From positions 1 to 64,000 of the forward strand of contig JAFGEO010000006.1 in the NCBI GenBank assembly GCA_016931575.1: 64,000 bases of DNA. The letters run 5' to 3'. A model generated the notes under the pieces. That model had not been told where the DNA came from, ran no database searches, and saw nothing but the letters and a program-made list of their open reading frames with translations. Numbering within the stretch: position 1 is the first letter of the stretch; the number at the start of each line of letters is the position of its first letter. The translations under genes were made by a program, and so were the position numbers. Source of the stretch: Bacteroidales bacterium. GTDB taxonomy: Bacteria; Bacteroidota; Bacteroidia; Bacteroidales; UBA10428. Positions 44,830-52,419 of the stretch are shown in pieces.

Positions 44830-46679
<1,850 letters not shown>

Positions 46680-49739: not shown

Positions 49740-51209
49740 ATGGCAGGCATACGAGCACTTCTTGGACTTTTTCCTAAGACCGGCGACTACGAGAGCAAGC
49801 TAAACACTCTTGATGAGGAGTATAAGGAGCTCATGGCGGTTAAAAACTCAAAAGAATTACATGAACTACATGAGTTGGAAGCTACGGTAAATTCGGAAGA
49901 ATTTATTCGTAAGAAGAAAGAGATTTTGTCTCTCAGGTTTAAGCAAACTGATGACTACCAAAAAGAGCAGCAGTATAAAAAGGCAGCTAAATCAGCCGAC
50001 ATTAAGCTGTATTACAAAGTAATGAATTCATCCGACCTGCGGAATTTTGAGAGGATCGCTGGATCTGCTGATCTGAGGACCTACAACGATCTTGAAGAGT
50101 TCGTAAAATCTGCTGAGTTTTTGCATCTTAAGAAGGAATCTAAAGCGAAAGCTTTTAAAGCCTCTGATGAATATGTCAGGTTCCAGGATTATCTGAGACT
50201 CAGGAAATCAAAAGATATTCAATTCTTTGAGAAATATAAGAAATCAAAATCGCTGAGCAATTTCAACCAACTTTCGGGATCTGACAGGCTGAAACAATTC
50301 GAAGAACTTGAAGCCTATGTTAAAGGGGATGAGTTCAATAAATTTAAAGCATATTGTCTGAAACCTCCCAGGAAGAGGTGGATGGAATCCAAAGAATTTG
50401 AGATTCTGCAGGATTATGAACTAAGGAAGAAATCGGAAAAGATTGTTTGGTATTTTAAGTACGCTGAACATAAGCGTTTTGACTGGCACCGTCGCTGGAC
50501 TCTGACATTTAAGGATGAGTTTTCAGGACCCAAGCTGGACAAAAAAATATGGTTGACACGGTATTACTGGGGAGATAAAATGTTTAAAGGCAGCTATTCT
50601 CTAAGTCAGGATAAGCATTTCGTTACCGATGGTGATAATTTACTGCTGGAAAACGGGAGACTGCACATTGTTACAAAAAAGGAAGATATTAAGGGAAATT
50701 CCTGGGATACCTCCTACGGTTTTATTTCCAGGGAATTTGGATATACATCAGGGCTTATCAACAGCGCGAACAGTTTCCGTCAGAAATACGGAATTTTCAG
50801 TGCGAAAGTGAGGCTTAATGCCGAATCTAAACTGATCAATGCTTTCTGGATGGTGGGTAACAGCATGGTTCCTCATATCGATGTTGTTAAAGCAGCAAAG
50901 AAAATAAGCTTTAGCCATGCATGGGGCGATCCAAAAGACCTTAAATCTGTTAATAAATTCAGTTATAAACGGGGAAGGAAAAGGCTGGCGAATGATTTCT
51001 ATATCTTCTCTCTGGAATGGAAACCTGGTAAATTAAGCTGGTCCATCAATGGTGTAGAGGTTGCTTCAACTACCTCCGGAGTTCCTGATGAAGAAATGTA
51101 TATTGCCTTTAGTGCTGGGCTGCAGACGGATGTTAATGGTATCCTTCCGGCAAGAATGGAAATCGACTGGGTAAGATGTTACCAGTTGAACGAGCTGCTG
51201 GAAGCCTAG
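49740..51209 (+). CDS. Three 72-residue helical repeats fused to a GH16-fold domain lacking catalytic glutamates
   Basis: This 489-residue protein has two parts. Residues 37-252 form three repeats with an exact 72-residue step between repeats 1 and 2 and at the start of repeat 3 (Ser37, Ser109 and Ser181 begin SKELHELHELEATV, SADLRTYNDLEEFV and SDRLKQFEELEAYV). Inside each repeat S-x-[DE]-[hydrophobic] motifs recur at offsets 0, 15, 33, 48 and 60, as helix N-caps; repeat 3 has a 3-residue insert. Residues about 253-489 have the GH16/laminarinase fold: W-T-L-T-F-K-D-E-F-S-G, Y-G-I-F-S-A-K-V-R-L-N, and F-Y-I-F-S-L-E-W-K-P-G-K-L-S-W. GH16 enzymes carry E-x-D-x-x-E (or E-x-D-x-E). Here the stretch is H379-I-D381-V-V-K384, so nucleophile and acid/base Glu are both gone. 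It is likely a carbohydrate-binding pseudoenzyme. No signal peptide is visible. Confidence 0.8.
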   Translation: MAGIRALLGLFPKTGDYESKLNTLDEEYKELMAVKNSKELHELHELEATVNSEEFIRKKKEILSLRFKQTDDYQKEQQYKKAAKSADIKLYYKVMNSSDLRNFERIAGSADLRTYNDLEEFVKSAEFLHLKKESKAKAFKASDEYVRFQDYLRLRKSKDIQFFEKYKKSKSLSNFNQLSGSDRLKQFEELEAYVKGDEFNKFKAYCLKPPRKRWMESKEFEILQDYELRKKSEKIVWYFKYAEHKRFDWHRRWTLTFKDEFSGPKLDKKIWLTRYYWGDKMFKGSYSLSQDKHFVTDGDNLLLENGRLHIVTKKEDIKGNSWDTSYGFISREFGYTSGLINSANSFRQKYGIFSAKVRLNAESKLINAFWMVGNSMVPHIDVVKAAKKISFSHAWGDPKDLKSVNKFSYKRGRKRLANDFYIFSLEWKPGKLSWSINGVEVASTTSGVPDEEMYIAFSAGLQTDVNGILPARMEIDWVRCYQLNELLEA

Positions 51210-51583: not shown

Positions 51584-51591
51584 TACCTTTG
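51584..51591 (+). promoter_or_regulatory. Candidate -7 box upstream of the ThiF-like gene
   Basis: TACCTTTG fits TAnnTTTG exactly. No proper TTG is found at 17-23 bp upstream (TTA at 51561-51563 only). A TTG that could look like a start codon (51589-51591) is the end of this box. Confidence 0.4.
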
Positions 51592-51645
51592 TTTAGTGTT
51601 GAAACAGACACAGAAGAATTAGCCACGTATTTCCGGATAAAGAAA

Positions 51646-52419
51646 ATGGAGCCTATGAATAGTCAGCCAAGTACTTTGAGTCAAAAAGAGATTAGGCGAT
51701 ACGCTTTACAGATAAGTGTCCCGCAAATCGGGATAAAAGGACAGGAAAAGATAAAATCCGCGAAAGTGCTGGTCATCGGTGCGGGGGGTAAGGGGACCTC
51801 AGTTATGCAAAATCTGGCTTCCATCGGTGTAGGCGAAATGGGAATAAGCGATAATTTTCCTGTTTTGGAGAGCGACTTGAGCCGACAGCATCTTTATGGG
51901 AGCAATGATATCGGTAAGCAAAAAGCCATTATTTCCAGACAAAAACTATTGGAGATCAATAACCTGAATAATTACAGGCTACATAATGTATTTTTATCTG
52001 CAGATAACATTTCTACTATCTGCAGGGATTACGATGTCCTGGTGGATACTACCGACAATGCAGCCGCTCATTACCTGATAAGTGATGCAGCAGTAGAACT
52101 GAATAAACCCCTCGTTTTTGGAGCGCTAAAGGGGGGTAATGGCCTTGTTACAATCCTGAATTATCAGCATGGCCCATCGCTCAGGTGTATATTCCCTGAA
52201 CCTGAAATGATGGAAAGGACCAATAGCGATGAAGACTTTACCTGTCACCTTTCTCTTCTTGCAATCGTGGGAGGGATTATTACCAATGAAGTAGTCAAAG
52301 TAATCCTGAAAAGGGATAGCCAGCTAAGTTCAAATTTGTTAAATATAGATCTTGGGAAGTACATTTTTAGCCTGAAACCCGTTGAAAGGAATCCCGATAA
52401 TTTCAAAGCCAATAACTAA
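51646..52419 (+). CDS. ThiF/MoeB/HesA family E1-like adenylyltransferase
   Basis: The protein activates a C-terminal Gly-Gly of a sulfur-carrier protein by adenylation, or a related carboxylate. From ATG 51646 it has 257 residues. It shows V-L-V-I-G-A-G-G-K-G (the usual G-x-G-G-L-G with K in place of L), S-D-L-S-R-Q-H-L-Y-G (Arg/Gln ATP-site pair), V-D-T-T-D-N-A-A-A-H-Y-L-I-S-D-A-A and S-L-R-C-I-F-P-E-P. The usual C-terminal zinc motif C-P-x-C is absent. Neither a thiS/moaD-like gene nor other thiamine or molybdopterin genes are in the window, so the pathway is open. It is a single gene between two regulators. Confidence 0.82.
   Translation: MEPMNSQPSTLSQKEIRRYALQISVPQIGIKGQEKIKSAKVLVIGAGGKGTSVMQNLASIGVGEMGISDNFPVLESDLSRQHLYGSNDIGKQKAIISRQKLLEINNLNNYRLHNVFLSADNISTICRDYDVLVDTTDNAAAHYLISDAAVELNKPLVFGALKGGNGLVTILNYQHGPSLRCIFPEPEMMERTNSDEDFTCHLSLLAIVGGIITNEVVKVILKRDSQLSSNLLNIDLGKYIFSLKPVERNPDNFKANN

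Follow-up and report, generated by a model that had tools for sequence, protein, structure and literature searches.

What a laminarinase-like fold is doing in a protein that displays neither the catalytic glutamates nor the export signal of its enzymatic relatives was the question raised by a gene from a Bacteroidales bacterium. The gene lies at positions 49740..51209 (+ strand) of the 64,000-nucleotide stretch of DNA analysed here (the window), starts with ATG and codes for 489 residues followed by a stop codon. An earlier note, written from the sequence of the window, had described its product as helical repeats fused to a GH16-fold domain and had proposed an unexported sugar-binding pseudoenzyme.

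Gene model and family

The stop-to-stop frame measures 497 aa, leaving merely 8 codons between the upstream stop and the ATG. A missed leader upstream of the 489-aa ORF was thereby ruled out, and the hypothesis of an overlooked upstream start with a signal peptide was rejected. A local sequence error or pseudogene was rejected as well, since intact relatives at 30-50% identity showed the same changes and the same layout was seen across Bacteroidales. In one relative, L009 (G007:C49), the gene was broken near residue 432 with its last part in another frame, through either an assembly fault or decay. The Bacteroidetes-type promoter pattern occurred five times in the window but never before the gene, and 14 of 100 shuffles reached as many matches. 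Likewise, matches of the sigma-70-type promoter scan were no better than those of shuffles.

A single-sequence query of the named genomes returned no relatives, and an alignment-profile scan of the same genomes matched 412 loci, 80 of which were used. Added to 24 members from related whole genomes, and after removal of 10 of the 80 as copies, these provided a main set of 94 distinct proteins. The C-terminal fragment of L009 was dropped before counting, as were L027 and L181, both cut by contig ends. Another 19 short or divergent members were chosen by hand from the weaker end of the order-sample matches (20 were fetched, one of them devoid of a GH16 part). Named hosts included Marinilabilia salmonicolor, Thermophagus xiamenensis, Anaerophaga thermohalophila, Marinifilum sp. 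and Perlabentimonas gracilis; the others were mostly Bacteroidales or Bacteroidota MAGs, and two carry the label Chlorobiota.

This dead GH16 family is found in many free-living Bacteroidales. Of 393 genomes sampled evenly across the order, 102 matched the family profile at E <=1e-30. At the class level, the full profile matched 114 of 395 genomes, of which just two (G000 and G051, both Bacteroidales) showed matches extending into the repeats, the remaining ones starting at residue 226 or later. In the phylum sample, the repeat profile matched a single genome out of 395, the window's own. A tree of 93 rows, composed of 40 of the 94 main-set members, the 19 short or divergent ones and 34 intact GH16 sequences, was built by a quick method with the catalytic columns included. 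The 59 family members were split from the 34 intact sequences by a branch with an SH-aLRT value of 99, with uncertain positions for the long-branch members L172 and L180. The grouping of the family on one side of this branch would fit one loss of catalysis followed by spread within Bacteroidales.

The GH16-fold head and its former active site

The C-terminal head (residues 253-485, positions 50496..51194, + strand) indeed belongs to GH16, as the earlier note had proposed, both by fold and by sequence family. It matched PF00722 with 28.6 bits (cut-off 22), and the model (mean pLDDT 92.7, pTM 0.71) displayed a jelly roll. Laminarinases were its best PDB matches, with a fold Z of 25.4 and an rmsd of 2.0 over 203-204 aligned residues. 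The GH16_3-like laminarinases (6jh5, 4crq, 3azz and 5wut) thus share with the family their jelly roll (Z about 25) and their GH16 profile. They differ from it by their catalytic Glu pair, cleft Trp and cleft His, all lost in the window family, which also lacks their export signal and is distinguished by its N-terminal helical repeats and by a hairpin, W322...G327-F328 (positions 50703..50723, + strand). This hairpin was present in 94/94 members and corresponded to a gap in 24-26 of the 34 intact GH16 sequences.

The former catalytic strand (residues 379-384, positions 50874..50891, + strand) occupies the ExDxxE position and reads H379-I-D381-V-V-K384, exactly as first reported. The loss of both catalytic Glu, initially noticed in one protein, proved to be family-wide: none of the 113 members read kept the pair (0/94 in the main set, 0/19 among short or divergent members). 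The E, D and E of the motif were kept in all 34 intact same-class GH16 sequences from the same searches. Among the 94 members, residues 379/384 were HR in 45, HK in 21, QK in 8, EK in 7, QR in 6 and HT in 3, with HE, HN, MD and EV occurring once each. The nucleophile position 379 was therefore His in 71/94 and the acid/base position 384 was Arg or Lys in 87/94. The nucleophile Glu was retained in 8/94 and the acid/base Glu in 1/94, never together, and these remnants leave room for a residual or unusual reaction.

This divergence extended beyond the two glutamates. Residues reported in PMC5595797 to line the cleft of laminarinase ULam111 were matched to the window protein through an alignment with the laminarinase chain. 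Equivalents of Arg71, Trp98, Trp102, Glu118, Asp120, Glu123 and His137 were recorded in 0, 1, 88, 8, 86, 1 and 7 of the 94 members, respectively, versus 18, 31, 34, 34, 34, 34 and 34 of the 34 intact sequences. Asn33, Gly37, Asn38 and Trp113 of ULam111 were left uncounted, being located in loops whose alignment was unreliable even in the intact set. Of the seven reliably aligned cleft positions, most members thus retained two, W370 (88/94) and D381 (86/94), and these counts indicate that the cleft was dismantled beyond its two Glu. Neither the ExDx(x)E motif nor the set of laminarinase cleft residues expected of an active GH16 enzyme was found, and it is well supported by the aligned sequences that the family does not operate through the GH16 mechanism.

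Conservation appeared elsewhere in the head. P378, W322, G327 and F328 were invariant (94/94), and newly conserved residues included Y286 (92/94), Q348 (92/94), R347 (90/94) and W277 (84/94). Judging from the alignment, the cleft floor is turned basic, with His or Gln at 379, Asp at 381 and Arg or Lys at 384, and the charge at the former acid/base site is reversed in the family. Such a conserved H/Q-x-D-x-x-R/K strand might point to an enzyme with another mechanism, relying on other residues of the remodelled cleft. Yet, comparison of the 94 members with the 34 intact GH16 sequences revealed no alternative conserved acidic pair specific to the family; seven positions were acidic in at least 85 of the 94 members, and at these the intact enzymes mostly have acidic residues as well. 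As one or the other catalytic Glu occurred in just 9/94 members, and never both, we consider this explanation very unlikely.

The "sugar-binding" part of the earlier proposal was not supported, since the family mostly keeps two of the seven aligned laminarinase cleft positions. It implied an intracellular lectin or sensor whose old cleft would still bind beta-glucan-like or other neutral oligosaccharides. Some sugar binding is indeed possible given the conservation of W370 and D381, and W277 and Y286 align with a loop situated by the substrate site according to PMC5595797. Yet, the contacts made by Arg71, Trp98, Glu118, Glu123 and His137 are gone in most members, and no sugar-use genes were found to recur beside the gene when nine neighbour clusters were run against Pfam. 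Since, moreover, the cytosol is not a known site of such glucans, this lectin or sensor role appears unlikely.

Mutated catalytic residues in a GH16 fold are also encountered in insect beta-glucan recognition proteins (GNBP/bGRP, GH16_4). These are metazoan or fungal, secreted and equipped with an N-terminal glucan-binding domain, whereas the window family is bacterial (Bacteroidales), unexported, without any leader, and carries helical repeats. According to PMC6827312, one or both catalytic residues are lost in ~9% of GH16_4, 0.7% of GH16_3 and 1% of other members, the non-catalytic GH16_4 proteins occurring in Metazoa and Fungi. A bacterial GH16 fold with no detectable laminarinase activity, Rv0315, is reported in PMC4606783; it keeps both Glu and a signal peptide, neither of which is present in the window family. 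Searches of the open-licence literature found no published description of a family combining the repeat with a dead GH16 domain. The GH16 fold and GH16 pseudoenzymes are thus already known, and it is the architecture and the compartment that appear to be new.

The helical repeat array

The N-terminal half starts with a first helix (residues 14-36, positions 49779..49847, + strand), where T14, E18 and L24 are conserved in at least 95% of members. It is followed by the 72-residue repeats placed at S37, S109 and S181 by the earlier note, a periodicity which turned out to be real. Over residues 1-250, lag 72 was the strongest among lags 5-139 (z 9.1 versus 500 shuffles), lags 12, 60, 24 and 48 ranking next, and Ser was found at all three positions in 46/46 standard-length members. 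Lag analysis, model and family alignment together delimited repeat 1 (residues 37-108, positions 49848..50063, + strand), made of five short helices, and repeat 2 (residues 109-180, positions 50064..50279, + strand). Repeat 3 (residues 181-252, positions 50280..50495, + strand) continues into the GH16 head and includes W237 and F247, both at least 95% conserved. Ungapped comparisons over 72 positions gave 27 identities between repeats 1 and 2, 13 between repeats 1 and 3 and 16 between repeats 2 and 3.

The five helix caps attributed to each repeat, at +0, +15, +33, +48 and +60, were recovered in the first two repeats (Thr70 standing at +33 in the first one) but only in part in repeat 3. There, a three-residue shift past the second cap leaves matches at +0 and +15 only, the +15 residue being Gly in the window protein, and displaces the later three caps to 217, 232 and 244. 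Residue 244 is His in the window protein and Ser in 28 of the 46 standard-length members. Three-residue indels likewise account for the fact that the best lag in other members was often 69 to 72.

As anticipated from the sequence, residues 1-252 were predicted to form a helical array (about 18 short helices, mean pLDDT 92.6, pTM 0.73). This array may form an alpha-solenoid, as suggested in the earlier note, or else a rod resembling a helical bundle. A PDB search with the sequence of the repeat part yielded no match at E <=1, and a Pfam search with the repeat of the window protein yielded no family, known helical-repeat families such as TPR and HEAT included. When the repeats of 40 members were scanned, 14 scattered Pfam families appeared, each in at most two members and with a best E of 0.00042, none of them convincing. 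At the structural level, Foldseek against the PDB found nothing at E <=0.001 (best E 0.14), a viral structure library contained no match to the repeat fold at E 0.001, and the best VIA-align result (Z 7.2, rmsd 6.8 over 126 residues) was at the level of noise expected among helical proteins. These weak fold matches were mostly coiled-coil rods.

Repeat number, estimated from length, ranged from about 1 to 7 among members; by profile, 3 of 113 scored none. It varied by whole units, and species of the window's own genus differed by two, five repeats being present in L004, L005, L013, L016 and L019 and three in L003 and L006. Among 60 relatives, each frame matching the repeat also contained the GH16 half, except in G018, where the contig ends. 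The short members L163-L180, of which L172 and L180 are very divergent, kept the dead GH16 head with about one or two repeats, so that the array can dwindle almost to nothing.

The head was also better conserved than the repeats, with a mean pairwise identity of 0.455 versus 0.371 over the 46 standard-length members, which is unlike decay. This difference, as well as the persistence of the head throughout the above range of repeat numbers, is difficult to reconcile with a GH16 fold serving purely as a structural or oligomerising block, with a ligand-free cleft and repeats that do the work. The loss of cleft contacts would agree with such a block, and an acidic residue at 374 (D/E in 83/94) and a basic one at 384 (87/94) could form salt bridges; on balance, we consider it rather unlikely.

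Compartment, gene context and proposed role

Export was assessed by scoring the most hydrophobic stretch of 12 residues among the first 40, a simple measure rather than a trained predictor, by which 111 of 112 members stayed below 2.0 (median 1.18; L119 was left out of this test only). The sole export-like member, L182, displayed an extra upstream Met and a misplaced start. In contrast, the 34 intact GH16 sequences had a median of 2.38, with 26 reaching 2.0 and several more showing a visible leader. The absence of a signal peptide from the window protein, already pointed out in the earlier note, is thus shared by its relatives, and a lack of classical export is well supported at the sequence level for a family that would reside in the cytosol. 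The N-terminal tail of the window protein, MAGIRALLGLFPK (residues 1-13, positions 49740..49778, + strand), was modelled with low confidence; comparable tails were hydrophobic and basic in many relatives and nearly absent in a few (e.g. L067 and L083).

The strongly hydrophobic leaders of the homologous enzymes (26/34, several more being visible) would leave some place for a family that acts outside the cell after export by a route needing no classical signal peptide. Yet, its members have no leader, the tail is almost missing in some of them and no such route is known for these proteins, which makes this explanation most improbable. A second GH16 protein, L001 (G000:C86:4363-4959, 671 aa), was found in the window's genome; its start resembles a leader, its E-x-D-x-x-E is intact, and it constitutes a useful active counterpart to the dead-head protein.

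The genes on both sides could be seen at 87 of 93 loci, and at 66 of those 87 no same-strand neighbour lay within 100 bp. The gene being mostly solitary, its surroundings name no partner. A search for an operon partner was unsuccessful in the 93 loci, recurrent neighbours reflecting shared chromosome order or an ECF sigma factor gene. The latter (cluster c2) came next downstream in 24/90 loci, mostly from one group of related species, and such loci (L080, L068, L108 and similar ones) often also contained a protein without Pfam match and a weak outer-membrane-barrel match. Shared gene order explained the repeated proximity of ATP synthase, ThiF, peptidase S51 and an AsmA-like cluster (named by eye, its representative having no Pfam match). 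In the window, a ThiF-family (E1-like) protein (51589-52419), recurrent in the same neighbourhood, lies directly downstream, and an ATP synthase beta gene, recognised by eye from its translation, is located at 45144-46679, a neighbourhood shared by several relatives. An anti-phage or phage origin was rejected, as PADLOC, PHROGs and phage records gave no match; matches in plasmid records were confined to the GH16 half among the best 20 of 38.

The earlier note had also listed findings that would speak against it. Instead, a helical array was predicted, no family-specific acidic pair emerged and the relatives read lacked both an intact motif and a signal peptide. The window protein probably works inside the cell, in binding or as a scaffold, and not as an enzyme. 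The head conserved above the repeats, the loss of catalysis throughout, the reversed charge at the acid/base site and the lack of export together argue for a cytosolic adaptor without enzymatic activity. Its GH16-derived head would bind a target other than the ancestral glucan at the end of a helical spacer of variable length, and we consider this reading rather probable. In such an adaptor, the head may have been reused as a binding surface composed of the basic cleft floor together with Y286, W322, G327, F328, R347 and Q348. Its ligand could be a protein, a small anionic molecule or some glycan different from beta-1,3-glucan. The helical array would act as a spacer, or as a surface for docking, whose length can be adjusted, and in members that have it the short hydrophobic-basic tail may contact the inner membrane. 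A more specific scenario, which we consider rather unlikely, is that a binding protein specific to Bacteroidales arose when a secreted GH16 was recruited inside the cell and that its acidic cleft became basic to accommodate an anionic ligand (nucleotide sugar, lipid-linked glycan intermediate or acidic polymer), carried on an undescribed, tunable helical spacer, perhaps at the inner membrane.

Most descriptions of GH16 proteins without catalysis concern animals, where they are secreted receptors for glucans; here, catalytic loss is the trait of a whole bacterial family. Judging from the profile hits, its members are likely labelled "glycoside hydrolase" in public records, and they may therefore be miscounted as glucan-degrading genes in ecological surveys. 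The study also brought to light a helical repeat for which neither Pfam nor the solved structures offered a convincing match. As read from its sequences, the family would clearly exemplify the conversion of an exported enzyme fold into an internal non-enzyme.
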